DNA of 34,021 bases, taken from positions 1-34,021 of IMG/VR virus record IMGVR_UViG_3300042868_009320; one strand, written 5' to 3'. Of this stretch, positions 9,553 through 18,266 are shown piece by piece. A program made the position numbers and the translations under genes. Source of the DNA: a virus. The notes under the pieces are model-generated. The model made no database searches and was not told where the DNA came from. It saw nothing but the letters and a program-made list of their open reading frames with translations. Positions within the stretch are counted from its first letter, which is position 1. The number at the start of each line of letters is the position of its first letter.

Positions 9553-9918
9553 TTAATACCAGCGAATAAGTTCATCAGTTGGCATCTTAACATATTTTAT
9601 TTTATCCTTTACTTTTATCTCACCTATTCTCCAATATCTTCTAGCCTTTACTCGTAAAAACTCTGCTCGTATAAAAACTATTCTATCTCTTAGGTCTAAG
9701 TTAAAAGCAAAGAACTCTACTCTTTCATCTGATATGCCACTAGGCTTGCCATCGTTCTCATACTCTAGCAAAAAATAACCCTTCTTTAAAGCTTCGGTTT
9801 GATGTATGACTAAAACCTTAGTACTCTTAGCAAATATTCTTATAGCTTGGTAGGTACCATCTACAGCCTTAGCAGCTTCTATTTCAAACTTTCTTCTATT
9901 TCTATAGCCCTTGGACAT
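9553..9918 (-). CDS. Basic hypothetical protein after dnaB
   Basis: A protein of 121 residues, rich in Arg and Lys, starting MSKGYRNRRKFEIEAAKAVD and containing ERVEFFAFNLDLRDRIVF and KARRYWRIGEIKVKDK. Its ATG lies 17 bases inside the end of dnaB, so translation is likely coupled. No catalytic motif or known domain is evident. Basic charge and placement between helicase and nuclease suggest a nucleic-acid-associated role, but this is context only. Confidence 0.65.
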   Translation of the reverse strand: MSKGYRNRRKFEIEAAKAVDGTYQAIRIFAKSTKVLVIHQTEALKKGYFLLEYENDGKPSGISDERVEFFAFNLDLRDRIVFIRAEFLRVKARRYWRIGEIKVKDKIKYVKMPTDELIRWY

Positions 9919-11242
9919 AATCTTGGAAAGTCATTGTTTCAGGTAAAAATCTTAATGCTAGGTTTTTTGTAGCTCCGTGTCTATTCTTCTCTACCTTACA
10001 AACTACTAAATCACTAGGAGAATATTCTCTACCACCAATCTCAACTGACTCGGTTTGTTCGTAGTAGCCTGGTCGCATTAGCATTATAACAGCATCAGCA
10101 TCTTGTTCTATTGATCCTGATTCTCTAAGGTCAGATAACTGAGGCATCTTATCACCTCGTTCTTCTACTCTGCGTGATAATTGGGATAGGGCGATAATAG
10201 GTACTTCCAACTCTTTGGCAAGTGCTTTTAGGCTCCTACTAATGTAGGATACCTCTTGCTCTCGGTTTTGGTTTGACTTGCCAGTACCACTCATAAGTTG
10301 AAGGTAATCGATAAAGATAATCTTTATGCCATACTTCTGTTTAAGAATAGTTGCTTTGGCTCGTAGCTGGGTTACACTAATACCGCCCATATCCTCTATG
10401 TAGATGGGGGAAGTAAGTATCTTGTCGTCAGTTCGCATTAAGTGAACTTTTTCGTTATCGGTCAGTAAATTCATTCTAAGACGTTTTAAGGGCAGTTCAG
10501 AGCTGATTGACTCTAACCTTTCAACTAACTGATTGGAGCTCATTTCGAGGCTAAAAATGGCCGTAGCGATGCCTCCTTGGATTGCTATGTGGTAGATACT
10601 AGAAAGCATAAAGGCAGTCTTACCCATTCCTGGTCTAGCAGCTATGATAACAAAGTCAGGATCTACCCAACCGCAAAGGGCGTTATTAAGCTCCATAAAA
10701 CCTGTGTTTATGCCTAATAACTGACCACTTACAGCAGCATCACGACCTTCATTTAGCTGCATAATGATTTGGTCTATAGTCTTTTCGTATATATTACCAA
10801 ACTCTTGCAATCCCATAAGTTGTTTACTAAAGGTAGCTAGTGTATCATCAGTAGATTCAGCACCATCAAAGGCCGATACCTCCATTAATCTGCCCAAGGT
10901 TGCTAACTTTCTACGCTTGTATAATTCTATTACTACCTCTATGTGGGTGTTTAGGTGTGCAGTAGATACAACACTATTCGTAATCTTTGATAGGTATAAG
11001 GCTCCTACTTCTTCTGAGTGCTTATTATCTATAAGTCGTTGGAACACAGTACTTAAGTCTATTTGTATATTCTTATCATACATCTGCTTAATCGTTCTAA
11101 ATATTAGTTGGTGCCTTAAATCGTAGAAGATTTCTTCGTTTAAGTAGTTCACTACTAATGGCAAAGCTCTTTTATCTAGTAGAATAGAGCCTAGGATATT
11201 TTCTTCTAGCTCAAGGTTTTTAGGTAGGTTTATAACGTCCAT
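9902..11242 (-). CDS. dnaB: Replicative DNA helicase, DnaB family
   Basis: A protein of 446 residues, the normal length for DnaB. The N-terminal domain (LEENILGSILLDKRALP) is the DnaB_N collar and primase-contact domain. The RecA-like C-terminal domain has Walker A ARPGMGKT at 202-209, the SLEMSSNQLVERL stretch, Walker B KIIFIDYLQL at about 307-316, and QLSDLRESGSIEQDAD with the arginine finger region. It unwinds the phage DNA as a hexamer ahead of a (probably host) polymerase. The start overlaps the stop of the upstream initiator/loader candidate (TAATG), which fits joint expression of helicase and loader. Confidence 0.96.
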   Translation of the reverse strand: MDVINLPKNLELEENILGSILLDKRALPLVVNYLNEEIFYDLRHQLIFRTIKQMYDKNIQIDLSTVFQRLIDNKHSEEVGALYLSKITNSVVSTAHLNTHIEVVIELYKRRKLATLGRLMEVSAFDGAESTDDTLATFSKQLMGLQEFGNIYEKTIDQIIMQLNEGRDAAVSGQLLGINTGFMELNNALCGWVDPDFVIIAARPGMGKTAFMLSSIYHIAIQGGIATAIFSLEMSSNQLVERLESISSELPLKRLRMNLLTDNEKVHLMRTDDKILTSPIYIEDMGGISVTQLRAKATILKQKYGIKIIFIDYLQLMSGTGKSNQNREQEVSYISRSLKALAKELEVPIIALSQLSRRVEERGDKMPQLSDLRESGSIEQDADAVIMLMRPGYYEQTESVEIGGREYSPSDLVVCKVEKNRHGATKNLALRFLPETMTFQDYVQGL

Positions 11243-11865
11243 TATTTAAGCTTTATTTTAGTTGTTTGTGATACTTCAGTATTGAACTTTGATGAGTTTC
11301 TCTTCCAGGTTCTTATAGCTGCTTTCCAATCCTTCATAGGATTTTTACTTACTAGCCAACCCCTAGCTTCGTTCCAATCACAGAAATATTCACCATCTAA
11401 TTTAAACTCTATTTCTTTTGCGTAATCGTTTACTTCCTTAGGAGTTGGTTTAACAAATTTATTTTTATATGTATTAGTATTTGTATTATTATATGGTATA
11501 GGTGTTGCAGTTTTGTTAGATCCATTTTGCAATTCTGCAATATGGTTATTGCAATTATCTAAAAAGCATTTTTCATCTACAAAAGCATACCAACAAGTCC
11601 TATCATATCCACTTTTATTATAATTTTCTCTTAATATAACTTTTTGTATAACTAAAGAATCTAAAATACGTTTCATTTTATGTTCATTCCAATATGGAAA
11701 TATTTCACTAAAAGCTTTATAAGTGTTATATGTCCAAGTTCTATTTTCAATTAGATGCTTTTTATTAGCTTTATTCTTAATTATCCAAAATTGAAGATTG
11801 TTAATCACAATGGATTCTTCTATACCATATTTCAAGGCATAATCTGTGTTAAAGTGATGCTCCAT
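11242..11865 (-). CDS. Putative replication initiator / helicase loader
   Basis: A protein of 207 residues. The N-terminal half (HFNTDYALKYGIEESIVINN, then NRTWTYNTYKAFSEIFPYW and KMKRILDSLVIQKVI) is a winged-helix DNA-binding domain as in phage replisome organisers. A Thr/Asn-rich linker follows. The C-terminus (FCDWNEARGW, then PMKDWKAAIRTWKRN) resembles DnaD/DnaT-type tails of phage initiators that bring in DnaB. Position directly before dnaB with overlapping codons strongly supports that job. The exact family is not certain from sequence alone. Confidence 0.78.
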   Translation of the reverse strand: MEHHFNTDYALKYGIEESIVINNLQFWIIKNKANKKHLIENRTWTYNTYKAFSEIFPYWNEHKMKRILDSLVIQKVILRENYNKSGYDRTCWYAFVDEKCFLDNCNNHIAELQNGSNKTATPIPYNNTNTNTYKNKFVKPTPKEVNDYAKEIEFKLDGEYFCDWNEARGWLVSKNPMKDWKAAIRTWKRNSSKFNTEVSQTTKIKLK

Positions 11866-12323: not shown

Positions 12324-12551
12324 CTAAGATTTAGGTAGTATCCTAAAAGCCACTACTCTCTCTTTATCTAAGTGCTTGACCATAAACTTCTTTCTAGCAA
12401 TAGGGTTTAGTGACTCTCTAATGCTCTGTGCTGTCACTTTAGACTTTCTACTAGCTGCTGCTATAGATTTAAAATGAATCTCTTCCTTGTTGTCTATAAA
12501 CACCATTCTAACTGGTATATTATTCTCCATCCCCTTTATCTCTTGACTCAT
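12324..12551 (-). CDS. Small NUMOD1-like putative DNA-binding protein
   Basis: A protein of 75 residues. The centre (FKSIAAASRKSKVTAQSIRE) looks like the helix-turn-helix of NUMOD1-type modules, where a residue run such as S-IAAA precedes the recognition helix. The rest is beta-like and basic. It overlaps the upstream gene by 32 bases and ends just before the promoter and structured element that precede the HNH gene. It might be a detached DNA-binding partner of that nuclease or an independent regulator; both are inference. Confidence 0.6.
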   Translation of the reverse strand: MSQEIKGMENNIPVRMVFIDNKEEIHFKSIAAASRKSKVTAQSIRESLNPIARKKFMVKHLDKERVVAFRILPKS

Positions 12552-12936: not shown

Positions 12937-13404
12937 TTATTTCTTTAAGGATATTTTAAATGTGGTTGTAGACACTCTAGGTGCTGGGTGTACCATCTCC
13001 CCAGTCTCAGGATCTACCATAGGAGTGTTGATAGTTCTTAGCATCTTTTCCCTTTCCTTAAGAGCATACTTAAGTGATTCTACTTCGTTGTTAAGTTTAG
13101 TCCAAGCATAATCTTGGTCATAGATGTACTTAACTCCTGATTCAATCTTAGTAACCTCGCTACCTAAGACATCAGCCTTGCCACCAGGATACTTAGCTAA
13201 CTCATCTACTACGATTTCTCTAAGCTCAGTACGAACACCATCAAATAATTGTGCTATGGCATCCATACGCACTAATGTTTCAAGTGCACTATCGCCTGTT
13301 TCTTTAAAGTGTTCTACAATAGTTGTCTTGATTAAGTCATTGTTAAACTTACTTGGTTCATAGGTAGACAGTTCTACCTTCGGTAAAAATATTTCTGTAC
13401 TCAT
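12937..13404 (-). CDS. Hypothetical protein coupled to the ERF-like gene
   Basis: A protein of 155 residues, mostly helical with a coiled-coil-like stretch (TKLNNEVESLKYALKERE) and a Pro-containing, basic end (STTTFKISLKK). Its ATG overlaps the stop of the ERF-like gene, a pairing that suggests a partner in recombination, for example a nuclease inhibitor or a loader. No catalytic motif is seen. A Gam-like role was considered, but the sequence gives no direct support. Confidence 0.62.
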   Translation of the reverse strand: MSTEIFLPKVELSTYEPSKFNNDLIKTTIVEHFKETGDSALETLVRMDAIAQLFDGVRTELREIVVDELAKYPGGKADVLGSEVTKIESGVKYIYDQDYAWTKLNNEVESLKYALKEREKMLRTINTPMVDPETGEMVHPAPRVSTTTFKISLKK

Positions 13405-14078
13405 TATTTTTTTGTTTTACTTGTGAATGATTCTTTTTTAGACTTAAGCAACATAAGTAAGGCTTTATCGCCATCTATGTATTGCTTGTATCCGTAATAT
13501 ATATCTACTAACTCCTTATTTTTTGTGCAGTCAGTAATCTGCTTGATTAATTCTACTCTATCAATTACTACTTCTGCCATCTCTTCTACTTCTACCTCTT
13601 GTACGACAGGTTTTTTGGGTTCCTCTTTTGCAAAGTCCATCTCTTCAGCAGGCGTAGCCTCAAATCCAGCTGCTTTCATTAGCCAAGCAAGTAGGTTCCT
13701 ATAAGCCTTACCAATCGCCCTTGTTTGTGCCATAGATAAAATAGCATATTCATCAAAGTATCTCTTAGTTTTTTCGGCATTCGAGCATAAGGCAATGCCT
13801 GTAGCAACGAGCTGACCTGTAGTAATATTGCGTACCTCACAAGTCGCCATATATTTAATAGCAGTTTCATTGGATAGATCTTGAGTAGATGTAATAATTG
13901 GCATCAATCCTAGTGAAGCTCCAGCAAACTGCCATCCTTCCACATTAACGAATTGTTTACCTTGAATGTTAGACGATAAGCCTTTCTCTTTAATTAGCTT
14001 AGATAACTCTGTGCTTAGTTTAAGCATTGAGTCCTTGTTGATTAACTCATACGAAGGACTAGTTGTTTGTAGTTCCAT
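13404..14078 (-). CDS. ERF-like single-strand annealing protein
   Basis: A protein of 224 residues. The core (NVEGWQFAGASLGLMPIIT, then YMATCEVRNITTGQLVATG, then LSMAQTRAIGKAYRNLLAWL) has the pattern of ERF/Rad52-type phage annealing proteins, including the helix with MAQTRAIGKAYR typical of that superfamily. An acidic, Pro/Lys-rich linker follows residue 150, and a helical tail ends the protein. It would bind single-stranded DNA and anneal strands in recombination-dependent replication. Assignment to ERF rather than a related annealing family is moderately sure. Confidence 0.78.
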   Translation of the reverse strand: MELQTTSPSYELINKDSMLKLSTELSKLIKEKGLSSNIQGKQFVNVEGWQFAGASLGLMPIITSTQDLSNETAIKYMATCEVRNITTGQLVATGIALCSNAEKTKRYFDEYAILSMAQTRAIGKAYRNLLAWLMKAAGFEATPAEEMDFAKEEPKKPVVQEVEVEEMAEVVIDRVELIKQITDCTKNKELVDIYYGYKQYIDGDKALLMLLKSKKESFTSKTKK

Positions 14079-14262
14079 AGTTTAGATTTTTTGGTTGTGT
14101 TTCTTGATAATAATAAGCTTCTCTTGTAGGATACTTTTGCCATATAGACAAGATAGATTCCATTAACTCAAGATTAGCTTGTGAATAATTAATTTGGTGG
14201 ATAATCTTAGCGATGAATAATCGCTTTTCAGAATCATCCCATAGTGCGAATTGACTTAGCAT
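14059..14262 (-). CDS. Small hypothetical protein between DnaA-like and ERF-like genes
   Basis: A protein of 67 residues, helical (EKRLFIAKIIHQINYSQANL) with an Asn/Gln/Tyr-rich end. It overlaps the DnaA-like gene by 29 bases and the ERF-like gene by 20 bases, typical of the packing here. No motif or membrane segment. Function unknown. Confidence 0.58.
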   Translation of the reverse strand: MLSQFALWDDSEKRLFIAKIIHQINYSQANLELMESILSIWQKYPTREAYYYQETQPKNLNYGTTNN

Positions 14263-14629
14263 ACTTTATGTGTTTTTTAGTTGGTAAATTAAGTTTAAGT
14301 AAGAATCTAATCTCATCAAATTGCTCCTGGTAGATGTCATTAGTCTTTAGGTCTTGTTGGTGCATACGCAATCCGTGTAGGACAGTTGTATGGTCACGAA
14401 AAAATAACCTGCCTATTGAGGCTACTGTGGCCCCGACGTAAGTTTTTAGGATGGCATAGCACATATTCCTAGTAAGCACTAGAATGCGTGATCTATCTTT
14501 AGACAAGGCATCTTTGTACCTTACATTCATCTCCTTACATACGAACTGAATTAGTAATTCTCTATCAGGTTCTTCAAAGTTTAATATTCCTGGCATAGCG
14601 TAGTAGTGTATTTTATTCGGTGAAATCAT
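14234..14629 (-). CDS. DnaA domain-IV-like DNA-binding protein, no AAA+ domain
   Basis: A protein of 131 residues. Residues 71-88 read SIGRLFFRDHTTVLHGLR, a close match to the DnaA signature in which RDHTTV contacts the DnaA box. The helices before it (NVRYKDALSKDRSRILVLTR) fit the rest of domain IV. The ATPase domain and N-terminal domains of DnaA are absent. It may mark the phage origin, bind host DnaA boxes, or regulate transcription. The ATG at 14629 gives the full length; an internal Met at residue 12 is possible. Confidence 0.85.
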   Translation of the reverse strand: MISPNKIHYYAMPGILNFEEPDRELLIQFVCKEMNVRYKDALSKDRSRILVLTRNMCYAILKTYVGATVASIGRLFFRDHTTVLHGLRMHQQDLKTNDIYQEQFDEIRFLLKLNLPTKKHIKYAKSIRTMG

Positions 14630-14807
14630 ATATTTGGTTTTTTAATTCTTCTATCTTCTTGCGATAGAAAGCTTCTACAATCTCAATCATCTCTTCGTCA
14701 GCCTTGGCCAACCTAGTGCGAATCTTATAAGGTGTGTACCCTGTAATCTCACAAATCTTTTTTATATCGCCATACTTAAGCAAGGCACGATAGTCTCTAA
14801 TTAGCAT
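14613..14807 (-). CDS. Small helix-turn-helix candidate
   Basis: A protein of 64 residues: DIKKICEITGYTPYKIRTRL reads like a helix-turn-helix of the 'is-this-the-right-state' type seen in small phage regulators, followed by a long charged helix (VEAFYRKKIEELKNQIYD). It overlaps the DnaA-like gene by 17 bases and the preceding gene by 11 bases. It could regulate the replication operon; no family is certain. Confidence 0.58.
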   Translation of the reverse strand: MLIRDYRALLKYGDIKKICEITGYTPYKIRTRLAKADEEMIEIVEAFYRKKIEELKNQIYDFTE

Positions 14808-15039
14808 CTTTTAGTTTTTTATATAATTTATAATGTCTGTCAATGGAACGCATTGCTCCTTCAATCGATGTGAAATAATCACCTCTCCAATAGTAGAACT
14901 TATCTAGGGGTTTTTTGGAATCCCAATGGATAAACATACCACGATAGATGTAATCTTTTTTAAGCCTTTGGCCATCTATGGTTATCATAAAATAATCCTT
15001 AAGGCCTTTTTGTTTTAGATGGGCTGGTGTAGGGTGCAT
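14797..15039 (-). CDS. Small hypothetical protein
   Basis: A protein of 80 residues rich in Lys, Tyr and Asp (LDKFYYWRGDYFTSIEGAMR), predicted alpha/beta, no membrane segment and no known motif. It belongs to the head of the replication operon, with two bases between it and the gene upstream and an 11-base overlap with the gene downstream. Function unknown. Confidence 0.58.
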   Translation of the reverse strand: MHPTPAHLKQKGLKDYFMITIDGQRLKKDYIYRGMFIHWDSKKPLDKFYYWRGDYFTSIEGAMRSIDRHYKLYKKLKDAN

Positions 15040-15249: not shown

Positions 15250-15465
15250 TTAGGGTTTTTGGGTTACTTTATTAAGTTTTTGGTGCCTTTGGAAATAAGA
15301 CTGAACTCCACTTGAATTGATTTGGCTCTGCATATTCTCATAATACACAGGATCAAGGAAGGTTTTTGATAGGTAGTTAAAATAGACTTGCTCACCTGGT
15401 GAGAAGTTTTTGCCAGTAAGACTACACTTGCAGCCATACTTAACGGTGATTAATTCAAATGACAT
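15250..15465 (-). CDS. First gene of the replication operon, small Cys-containing protein
   Basis: A protein of 71 residues from the ATG at 15465 (MSFELITVKYGCKCSLTGKN). The frame is open up to an ATG at 15552, but those 29 codons lie in the T-tract repeat array and read as low-complexity Lys/Asn/Thr, so the shorter form is preferred. Two Cys close together (CKC) and a PGEQVYF stretch hint at a small structured fold but not a complete metal site. Function unknown. Confidence 0.6.
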   Translation of the reverse strand: MSFELITVKYGCKCSLTGKNFSPGEQVYFNYLSKTFLDPVYYENMQSQINSSGVQSYFQRHQKLNKVTQKP

Positions 15466-15470
15466 AGATG

Positions 15471-15647
15471 GGGTTTTTGTTTTGTTTGACGAAGTTAAGG
15501 GTTTTTTGTTATTGTTAAGGATTTTTAGCAGGTTTTTTGTTAAGGTAATCATAAAAGATTTTTGCCTAACCTTGAGGAGTTTTTGCGTGTGGGATTTTTA
15601 GGGGATTTTTAGCAGGTTTTTGCCGAGGGGTTTTTGGCAGGTTTTTG
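15471..15647. promoter_or_regulatory. Phased T-tract array, probable curved DNA
   Basis: Eleven runs of five or six Ts, mostly flanked by G (GGTTTTTG, GGATTTTTAG), lie in 175 bp. Centres are near 15476, 15504, 15524, 15535, 15561, 15582, 15597, 15608, 15619, 15633 and 15644. Several spacings are about 11 bp and others about 21 bp, close to one or two helical turns, which is the arrangement that bends DNA. A 19-bp direct repeat (GGATTTTTAGCAGGTTTTT) occurs from 15519 and from 15603, 84 bp apart. It lies just upstream of the replication operon and may be its control region or an origin. Confidence 0.7.
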
Positions 15648-15845
15648 TCACTTTGAAATTTTGTTTCAATGGTTGCATAAACAACTAATGGCTTAACATT
15701 AATGTTTAAACTTTGATATATTTTATATAGGTATGCCAAATTCATATATGAATCAATTTTAAGGCTATTTTAAGCCCATTTACGGGCCTTTATTTTATTT
15801 TATGTGTCCTTGTATCAACTATTTTTTTTCGTGTCTTATTTCGTC
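15648..15845. other. Non-coding stretch with two perfect palindromes and a hairpin
   Basis: No convincing gene is seen between the T-tract array and the gene ending at 15846. AACATTAATGTT (15695-15706) is a 12-bp perfect palindrome, and ATTCATATATGAAT (15740-15753) is a 14-bp perfect palindrome. GCCC (15774-15777) can pair with GGGC (15784-15787), followed on the plus strand by CTTTATTTTATTTT. The palindromes look like operator sites for a dimeric regulator of the replication operon. Confidence 0.55.
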
Positions 15846-16076: not shown

Positions 16077-16107
16077 AAAAAAGCGCGCACCCATTACAGA
16101 TGCGCGC
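16077..16107 (-). terminator. Strong rho-independent terminator after the amidotransferase gene
   Basis: On the minus strand GCGCGCA pairs with TGCGCGC over seven G/C-rich base pairs (16107-16101 with 16089-16083), with a G-U possible inside. Six Ts follow at 16082-16077. It closes the amidoligase/amidotransferase unit. Such a GC-rich stem stands out in this AT-rich genome. Confidence 0.9.
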
Positions 16108-16123
16108 CCACATTAAACAAACA

Positions 16124-16858
16124 CTATTTTAGAGCGTACGCATACTCTTCATATTTAAAACAATTTTGGCACAAATAAATATCGTAAAAGTCATCATATT
16201 CGATATGCTCTAATTGGGTGACTTCTCCACAGCACTCGCAAGGCAATTCGTTTTCTTCTTCGTCTTCATCTAGTTCATTAATGCTCTTACTTGAATAGGG
16301 CTTCGCATAATAAGATAACGCACCTAAATATGACTTATTAGAGTACCAGGCGCCCTTATGCCAATTACCCGCGTTCTCATTAATGATATAGAAGTCTCCG
16401 TAACTATCTAAAAAGACAAATTTGTTATTGGCACCGATTGAAAATTCGATTAACTGCATTAATGAATCATTTTGCACAAAATTAGAAGGCAATCCCTTCA
16501 AAAATGTGTTATTATAAATTTGCGTGTCGTTAATCTTTGAATAAATTGGCACATCAATATCTAATATCCCATTATGGCAAAAGAAAATATCTTCATTCAC
16601 TTTGAATGGGTGGCAGTTTTCGTAATTGACTCCACCACTAGTGGCAATTCTAAAGTGAATAACAATATTTGTATTGAATTTGTCGGCTTCCCTCTTTAGA
16701 TCCATAAACTTCGCAAAGTCAGTTAATTCCTTTTTTACTATTACTTGCCCTTTATTGGCATACATAATGCCAGCTCCGTGTCCGTTACTATTCCAACAAT
16801 TTAATAATGTAGATTCCTTAATTTTTGTGCCTTTCGGCTGTATAGCTATAATACACAT
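16124..16858 (-). CDS. Class II glutamine amidotransferase-like protein with zinc ribbon
   Basis: A protein of 244 residues. The start MCIIAI places Cys2 as an N-terminal nucleophile after Met removal, as in GATase II enzymes. HFRIATSGG (68-76), CHPF (82-85) and HNG (95-97) are the ammonia-release and substrate-binding motifs of the family. A C-terminal addition with an acidic linker and CxCC (207-210) plus CQNC (230-233) looks like a zinc ribbon. The enzyme should release ammonia from glutamine for a partner synthetase. The gene directly upstream, three bases away, is an amidoligase, so the two probably work together on an unknown substrate. Confidence 0.85.
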   Translation of the reverse strand: MCIIAIQPKGTKIKESTLLNCWNSNGHGAGIMYANKGQVIVKKELTDFAKFMDLKREADKFNTNIVIHFRIATSGGVNYENCHPFKVNEDIFFCHNGILDIDVPIYSKINDTQIYNNTFLKGLPSNFVQNDSLMQLIEFSIGANNKFVFLDSYGDFYIINENAGNWHKGAWYSNKSYLGALSYYAKPYSSKSINELDEDEEENELPCECCGEVTQLEHIEYDDFYDIYLCQNCFKYEEYAYALK

Positions 16859-16861
16859 AAT

Positions 16862-18163
16862 TTATAAATTTTTTAGTTTAATGAATTTTTTTAGGTTAGA
16901 ATATTCGCACGAATTAGCAATATATTCCTTGAATGAATCAAGCGTAATTATTTTAGATTCCTTAGTAAACATATACAAAGCGTGTACGAACTCAATATTC
17001 TTCATAAAAGATTGAAAGTTCAAAGTACCACGGAATATGCGTACTTCAATAGTGGAATAATTTTGTAGATTAATTGCCACATATCTTGCTGAATTACCTT
17101 CTTTTTTCTTTGCTTTATACATTAGCGCGTTGTCGTCGTTGTCTTCTATGTTAGCCCATTGAACAAGTTTTTCCATTTTGCGTTGGCTAATTGCGACTAT
17201 AAAAGGCACATTTTCGGCAAAGAACTTCATAAATTTATATAATTGCCAGGTACCAAAGGCCTTTTTACTTATATGAATGTGCATTCCGCAAGTATTGGCA
17301 TTATAGCTATTGTAAGCGTTGTTAGATAGCTCATTCAAGGCACTTTCAAAGTCTTTTGCGCTGTGTTTAATGTAAGAGAATGTTAATGGGTGACTAACTA
17401 ACTCAAAGCCATTATTTAAACTTCCATCGTTCTTAAAATACCAGGCTTTATTCTCAATCTTTTTTGCCATATCCCCTCGGTTAGTTTCGCTTTTATCCAT
17501 TTTCTCGACTTCCAATTCAATACCAAAGAAAGGCACTTCCTTAGAATCATATGGCATTGAAATAAATTGTAAAATTGGCTTAAATGAATAGTTACGAATA
17601 ATAGAGCTGTTTTCTTTTTGCTCTTCGTCTTCGTCATACTCTTCATCTTCGGGTTCGTCGTGGTATTGGTCGTCGCATTCCCAATAATACACATCGTCTC
17701 TGTGTCTTAATTCTCCGTCAATATCAAAGACTAAATCGTCGTCGTTATCTATATATGCCATAGTATAAAAGTCGTCTCCTAATTGATAAATATCATTATT
17801 ACTATTGCAATTATCAATGTGAGTATAATATTCGCGCCTTCTATCATTCACCAGGACTGAATCACCAGTTAGTATATTGCATTCGTCTATATCGTCATAT
17901 CTATACTCGTCGTCGTCTTGTACTTCGTGGTACCATTCATCTTCAACCAATACGCAATCTTCACAATATGAATAAAAGTAATAAGATTCTCCATCAATCT
18001 TAAACGAACTTGAACCTGTTTCGACAATATCTTCATAATTAGTGGCCTTGCACTCTTCTTTGTATTCTTTGCGTAGATAACCTTCTTCTACTGACTTTTG
18101 TAATACTTGAACAATGATTCGTAATTCCTTAAATGTTTTTGTTTGTGTTAATGTGTTTTCCAT
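16862..18163 (-). CDS. Amidoligase-family enzyme (amidoligase_2-like, glutamine synthetase-like fold)
   Basis: A protein of 433 residues from the ATG at 18163; an in-frame TTG at 18199 overlaps the upstream ORF and is rejected. The C-terminal half has the amidoligase motifs: GIELEVE (214-220), NDGSLNNGFELVSHP (245-259), CGMHIHIS (292-299) and IEVRIFRGT (372-380). These supply the metal-binding Glu and His and the Arg of the COOH-NH2 ligase site. The first 195 residues are acidic and Tyr/Asp-rich, with scattered Cys pairs (CEDC, ECDDQYH) that may form small zinc modules. The family joins an amine to a carboxylate with ATP. Association with a GATase II supplies the ammonia. Target (peptide, wall or protein) unknown. 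Confidence 0.84.
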   Translation of the reverse strand: MENTLTQTKTFKELRIIVQVLQKSVEEGYLRKEYKEECKATNYEDIVETGSSSFKIDGESYYFYSYCEDCVLVEDEWYHEVQDDDEYRYDDIDECNILTGDSVLVNDRRREYYTHIDNCNSNNDIYQLGDDFYTMAYIDNDDDLVFDIDGELRHRDDVYYWECDDQYHDEPEDEEYDEDEEQKENSSIIRNYSFKPILQFISMPYDSKEVPFFGIELEVEKMDKSETNRGDMAKKIENKAWYFKNDGSLNNGFELVSHPLTFSYIKHSAKDFESALNELSNNAYNSYNANTCGMHIHISKKAFGTWQLYKFMKFFAENVPFIVAISQRKMEKLVQWANIEDNDDNALMYKAKKKEGNSARYVAINLQNYSTIEVRIFRGTLNFQSFMKNIEFVHALYMFTKESKIITLDSFKEYIANSCEYSNLKKFIKLKNL

Positions 18164-18164
18164 T

Positions 18165-18266
18165 TTACTTCTTTTTAAATGATTGAATAAAAGTGACAAT
18201 GAATGTGTAAAGAATGATACTAATTAAACTAACTAATATCAATTCAGCCAGGCTTATTACTTGCAT
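18165..18266 (-). CDS. 33-residue membrane peptide, amidoligase operon
   Basis: The ORF opens MQVISLAELILVSLISIILY; nearly all of residues 4-28 are hydrophobic, and it ends in FKKK. Its start overlaps the end of the other tiny ORF by ten bases, and it stops one base before the amidoligase ATG. The exact fit between neighbours argues for translation. A single membrane pass with a basic tail inside is predicted. It may place the enzymes at the membrane or act on it. Confidence 0.55.
   Translation of the reverse strand: MQVISLAELILVSLISIILYTFIVTFIQSFKKK

Follow-up and report, generated by a model that had tools for sequence, protein, structure and literature searches.

A one-way array of YAAAAAYC units heads the replication operon of uncultivated phages and may be read by a free-standing DnaA domain IV protein

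The low-affinity arrays of the E. coli origin oriC (R5M-tau2-I1-I2 and C3-C2-I3-C1) are composed of DnaA sites that lie 2 bp apart and face one way (PMC4451416), and E. coli DnaA tolerates gaps of only 2-3 bp (PMC11317965). Close sites are also found in promoters that DnaA regulates through double DnaA boxes upstream of replication genes (PMC11317965). A DnaA-like DNA-binding domain can further control transcription in a virus-like element, as is the case for GafA, which activates the Rhodobacter gene transfer agent; GafA is larger, has several domains and contacts the omega subunit of RNA polymerase (PMC9638019). Direct repeats before start codons have been described, from Bacteroidetes among others; these TAACTGA heptamers are proposed to play a role in translation (PMC4679880). 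Free-standing DnaA domain IV proteins occur in many viral contigs, and no stated role for them was found in listings of the open-access literature, nor any description of the array presented below or of any other phage DnaA domain IV box array.

The DNA analysed here, called the window, is a 34,021-base virus record from IMG/VR. No named phage gave a DNA match to it or a protein match to the first gene after its array, and the DnaB and terminase matches in named phages are all below 60% identity. Since Bacteroides and Flavobacterium phages are among the best terminase matches listed, the host is likely to belong to the Bacteroidota. The features used below are as follows.

15473-15647, minus strand: array of 11 units, YAAAAAYC on the transcribed (minus) strand and RRTTTTTR on the plus strand (unit profile from 105 distinct arrays, flank table)
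15579-15647, minus strand: dense core of the array, six units at 11, 14, 11, 11 and 15 bp (of 113 arrays, 28 have a core of six, more than have any other size)
15473-15564, minus strand: tail of the array, five units at 25, 12, 19 and 29 bp (comparison with relatives)
15653-15688, no strand assigned: inverted repeats TTGAAA..TTTCAA and GTTG..CAAC adjoining the array, candidate operators (read from the sequence; upstream palindromes are enriched in the relatives as a group)
15250-15465, minus strand: first gene after the array, of 71 aa; its ATG, as read in the sequence, is at 15465
14234-14629, minus strand: free-standing DnaA domain IV protein of 131 aa, the proposed reader of the array (Pfam, phmmer, AlphaFold)
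11242-11865, minus strand: replication initiator, PHROG replication initiation / DnaD-like (PHROG match; N-terminal domain swapped among relatives, array constant)
11505-11558, minus strand: weak candidate iterons ATAATTGCAA, AGAATTGCAA and AAAACTGCAA at 22 and 22 bp, inside the initiator gene just before an AT-rich stretch (repeat search against shuffles)
9902-11242, minus strand: DnaB-type replicative helicase (protein match)

Eleven T5-6 runs, all in one orientation, lie between 15474 and 15646, and each has a G within the two preceding bases and a G or A after it. An earlier note on this DNA had reported eleven such runs in 175 bp, mostly flanked by G on one side and too specific to be mere AT-richness, and each part of that description has held. 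When all 177-bp windows are compared, the maximum of eleven T-runs is reached at the array only, no other stretch comes close, and A-runs never exceed five. The repeat of 19 bp at a distance of exactly 84 bp is likewise present (GGATTTTTAGCAGGTTTTT at 15519 and 15603), and the array does lie directly upstream of the replication operon, as had been said. An alternative, longer reading frame of the first gene (15250-15552) would begin within the array. A TAATTTTA-like motif in the tail is a candidate promoter element. A search for TAnnTTTG promoters upstream of the arrays gave no positional peak. The palindromes that had been remarked on nearby stand beside the array in part of the relatives: upstream of the arrays, TGTTNNAACA occurs in 11 of 49 and an AGTTG..CAACT repeat in 10 of 49, against 0.2 and 0.01 in shuffles. 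Palindromes of the forms TGTTATAACA / TGTTTAAACA and ATTAGTTG-N6-CAACTAAT stand 23-69 nt ahead of the array; farther out, mostly at 78-133 nt, there are G[GC]CTTAAAA repeats (both for instance in L004, L010 and L042). Further up in the window (16081-18199), a class II glutamine amidotransferase-like gene adjoins an amidoligase-like gene, and this pair is followed by a strong terminator on the minus strand (16081-16109).

The exact 19-mer is present in 81 viral stretches, and 138 distinct arrays were collected by means of this 19-mer, protein searches and a looser DNA pattern. Orientation, palindromes, conservation and flanks were counted in 136 of the 138, L322 and L372 being excluded because their downstream reading frames are spurious. 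The transcribed-strand unit YAAAAAYC is found at the head of the replication operon in many uncultivated phages, with 5-13 units per array and 1255 units in the forward direction against 5 in reverse (136 arrays). In 105 distinct arrays the commonest spacing is 11 bp, followed by 13 and 17 bp, with 19 and 26 bp close behind; 15 and 25 bp are also common among the wider spacings. The flanks of the A-run depend on each other, T-A5-C being seen 8 times where 49 are expected. In 1,998 pairwise comparisons the A-runs differ in 1,168 of 59,381 cells (2.0%) and the spacers in 19,617 of 135,075 (14.5%), so that A-runs change 7-fold less, a contrast that is somewhat inflated since A-runs are themselves the detection criterion. 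The spacing pattern of the tail is retained even where a gene has been inserted between core and tail (e.g., L171 and L159). The first genes after the arrays are unrelated and fall into 18 families (counted before two were dropped); the array precedes such different genes and is therefore a portable element. A simple satellite repeat was considered and rejected: the genome stretches (at least 118) are mostly equally spaced, whereas the phage arrays keep their units and vary their spacers.

Seven genes recur in every one of the 60 array loci that extend 5 kb or more downstream (in the window 14797-15039, 14613-14807, 14234-14629, 14059-14262, 13404-14078, 12937-13404 and 12324-12551), and the gene for the DnaA domain IV protein, DnaA_C, is thus in the operon of 60 of 60. 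Within the stretch searched, the initiator is found in 58 and DnaB in 46 of these loci. In total, DnaA_C is encoded by 96 of 128 array loci, and in the other 32 the sequence runs out at most 2,284 nt downstream of the array. In a set of loci fetched through array DNA only, DnaA_C is found within 3,155 nt of the array in 86 of 128 irregular viral arrays; for the 42 without it, the downstream side is at most 2,496 nt, and one of them, L354, looks satellite-like. DnaA_C lies near none of 26 genome arrays and near 1 of 10 satellite-like viral arrays. The protein encoded at 14613-14807 (64 aa) seems from its sequence to consist of a helix-turn-helix and, after it, a coiled coil.

For the phages that share the window's operon, here clade 1, this linkage is by itself synteny, and it is a second clade that bears the weight. 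Three of the 86 loci (L364, L373 and L376) belong to other phages, in which a divergent DnaA_C gene, oriented opposite to the array, lies at a distance of 138-610 bp from it. A fourth locus, L446, found by protein search, is arranged similarly. Of ten early-operon families of the window, DnaA_C alone occurs in all four of these clade 2 loci; the families of the small helix-turn-helix protein (60 of 60 clade 1 array loci) and of DnaB are in none of the four. Next to its array and DnaA_C gene, L446 also has a long tandem repeat of about 30 bp (720-1145). A prospective set of 25 loci, at least three of which are contigs already in the collection, was then fetched by the DnaA_C proteins of L373 and L376 alone. 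An adjacent array of 7-10 units is present in 20 of them (shuffles give at most 5), and in the remaining 5 the best cluster has at most four units. All 20 arrays are on the strand opposite the gene; relative to the DnaA_C gene start, 7 lie about 120 bp upstream and the other 13, just past the gene, about 525-683 bp downstream. They show 17 distinct spacing patterns and a minimum spacing of 9 bp. Among 97 distant viral DnaA_C loci with at least 3 kb upstream, 22 lack an array on the gene strand; in two of these, L373 and L376, it is found on the opposite one. The majority of the more distant DnaA_C loci lack an array of this kind.

The product of 14234-14629 belongs to the DnaA domain IV family, as judged by profile, predicted fold and DNA-contact residues. 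Pfam Bac_DnaA_C matches it with 54.6 bits (cut-off 31.5) at residues 25-88, which is the sole Pfam match above cut-off in the 131 residues, and neither a domain I as in a full DnaA nor an AAA+ domain III, with which DnaA oligomerises, was found in it. The AlphaFold model (mean pLDDT 77.8) superimposes on DnaA DNA-binding domains with a TM score of 0.91 on the target and an rmsd of 1.1. Across an alignment of 15 family members reaching down to 30% identity, R46, R54, D79 and T82 do not vary. The phmmer alignment to E. coli DnaA domain IV (1j1v) places R46 and T81 opposite R399 and T435, where the residue numbering of 1j1v is taken to be that of E. coli DnaA. In the E. coli protein, R399 contacts the minor groove and T435 a base (PMC9638019). 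The residues for base contact resemble those of ordinary DnaA, yet the array unit differs from TTATNCACA. Nor is the window enriched in TTWTNCACA boxes, of which it has 3 where 5 are expected.

We consider it reasonably probable that the units of the T-tract array serve as a row of boxes for this phage-encoded protein, and the DnaA-like protein to which the earlier note had pointed now looks like the right partner. Judging from the arrangement of the locus, the array most likely controls the operon that encodes the DnaA-like protein, autoregulation being the first choice and a role as origin the second. The box would be the 8-9 bp unit YAAAAAYC(C), many copies of which lie 11 bp apart in one orientation, and the gene for the binder would be the one about 0.85 kb further down the operon. 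The minor-groove arginine of the protein might sit on the A-tract, and its DHTT helix might face the flanking C. Protein copies would occupy neighbouring boxes, and the degree of filling would set transcription of the replication and recombination operon, including the protein's own gene. Binding, cooperativity and the direction of regulation are what we infer here.

Among the systems mentioned above, the low-affinity arrays of oriC appear by analogy to be the closest model. Both have short one-way sites, the commonest spacing in the phage arrays equals a 9-mer plus 2 bp, the clade 2 minimum of 9 bp likewise suits 9-mer boxes, and the proposed reader has the DnaA domain IV fold. The phage unit YAAAAAYC is, however, not TTATNCACA-like, the units are more numerous, wider gaps are frequent besides the 11-bp spacing, and the reader lacks AAA+ and is found in a phage operon. 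Membership of the oriC-type DnaA boxes is not claimed because the unit is not a DnaA box, the gaps vary, and the protein is without AAA+. The double-box promoters differ in unit sequence, in the number of sites and in that the phage encodes the protein itself. For GafA, no comparable array is described in the excerpt used (PMC9638019). The TAACTGA repeats differ in that the phage array consists of spaced units linked to a DnaA-like gene.

The earlier note had proposed strong DNA curvature, and curved DNA from phased T-tracts could in principle be the functional feature. The curvature was predicted by a wedge model, in which a phased control was bent and an unphased control was not. Relative to the window, the array is at the 99.7th percentile at 61 bp, and only at this scale does it stand out; at 125 and 177 bp it is at the 91st and 86th percentiles, which is ordinary. 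The T-tracts form two sets about half a turn apart, so that their phases cancel (resultant R = 0.22 at 10.5 bp, matched or exceeded by 80% of spacing permutations). The run spacings along the array are 28, 20, 11, 26, 21, 15, 11, 11, 14 and 11 bp, and the idea of one or two helical turns fits the values 11, 11, 11, 11, 20 and 21 but not 14, 15, 26 and 28. Spacing patterns are conserved in relatives, although not as multiples of the helical repeat, and in 101 relatives the phasing is close to random (mean R 0.323 against 0.282). Nor does the 84-bp interval gain significance as eight turns: among loci with two exact copies of the 19-mer it is kept in L049 only, apparently a near-identical sequence, and the others have 63, 73, 74, 83, 124 or more than 1,400 bp. 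Because of the ordinary percentiles at 125 and 177 bp, the two opposed tract groups and the near-random phasing, curvature is not the conserved feature, and it is very improbable that it is the functional one. Still more improbable is that the DnaD/O-like initiator (11242-11865), which shares the operon and has the role of an initiator, has its iterons in the array. If it were, the array sequence should follow the DNA-binding domain of the initiator; instead, at least five types of N-terminal domain occur alongside one unchanged unit, with swaps even between phages whose DnaB is 98-99% identical (L171, L068 and L101), and on this exchange the idea is rejected. Initiator genes with exchanged N-terminal domains and type-specific iterons are found in the window, L167, L042, L068, L179 and L117. 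Several initiator types have three near-perfect direct repeats of their own, 20-24 bp apart and ahead of an AT-rich linker within the gene (e.g., TATTCGGAAA three times, AGAAACTTTA three times). In the window (type A) the candidates are weak, with 5 mismatches summed against a mean of 8.9 and a minimum of 6 in ten shuffles, and types E and E2 have none above shuffles. By likeness to the layout of the lambda origin, these iterons with their AT-rich linkers are probably the real origins. More distant DnaA_C phages (L442 5680-5725, L447 6440-6490) have GGGCACAGCAA as a direct repeat every 11 bp, apparently within an initiator gene; the repeat contains CACA like a DnaA box.

These intragenic repeats make it less likely that the array itself is the replication origin, at which the DnaA-like protein would fill the boxes and open adjacent AT-rich DNA before a helicase is loaded. 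One-way boxes at 11 bp are seen in oriC as well, the AT content rises from about 66% in the surroundings to a maximum of 77% at 100-150 bp into the array region, a strict pattern matches 13 of 20 near-complete records in one place each, and the clade 2 array of L373 and L376 sits between a gene for 832-835 aa and DnaA_C. The GC skew, which the earlier note had named as a check for an origin, on the other hand does not switch at the array, and its sign changes (about 8.4 and 18.3 kb) coincide with changes of gene orientation; the protein has no AAA+ domain, and several initiator types own iterons even if those of type A are weak. Taken together, we regard the array as origin as unlikely, if worth keeping in mind. 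A reading in which the array acts in the 5' leader RNA, as CAAAAACC repeats forming a Rho utilisation site, a site for S1 or another RNA-binding protein, or a translation enhancer, is more doubtful. In clade 1 there is indeed a likeness to a rut site: no other 78-nt stretch on the transcribed strand of the window has as strong an excess of C over G as the core, and rut rules ask for a C every 11-13 nt (PMC6407284). Clade 1 units moreover lie between the palindromes and the start codon, the last often 2-10 nt before the ATG, and the array RNA is less folded than the upstream sequence in 26 of 27 cases. On the other side, clade 2 units are on the strand opposite the DnaA_C gene and often downstream of it, the A-runs are more conserved than the pyrimidines, and in 25 of 27 cases the array is slightly more folded than its own shuffles are on average; in the window z is -0.57, which gives no signal of leader RNA structure, and an Rfam search of the window gave no match. 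RbpB was considered as an RNA reader and dropped. Recognition in DNA is more likely than recognition in leader RNA, because array and DnaA_C stay together while orientation and position relative to genes differ between the clades.

With a recurring directional array linked to DnaA_C genes, these proteins have a concrete candidate target sequence, and their function becomes testable. The pairing also bears on how far the assembly of an orisome needs the AAA+ domain. It is quite possible, though we put this forward tentatively, that phage regulators consisting of DnaA domain IV only are a widespread family with a box of their own, YAAAAAYC, and that on an array of such boxes they may form an orisome-like complex without AAA+ that would switch on, or start, phage replication.
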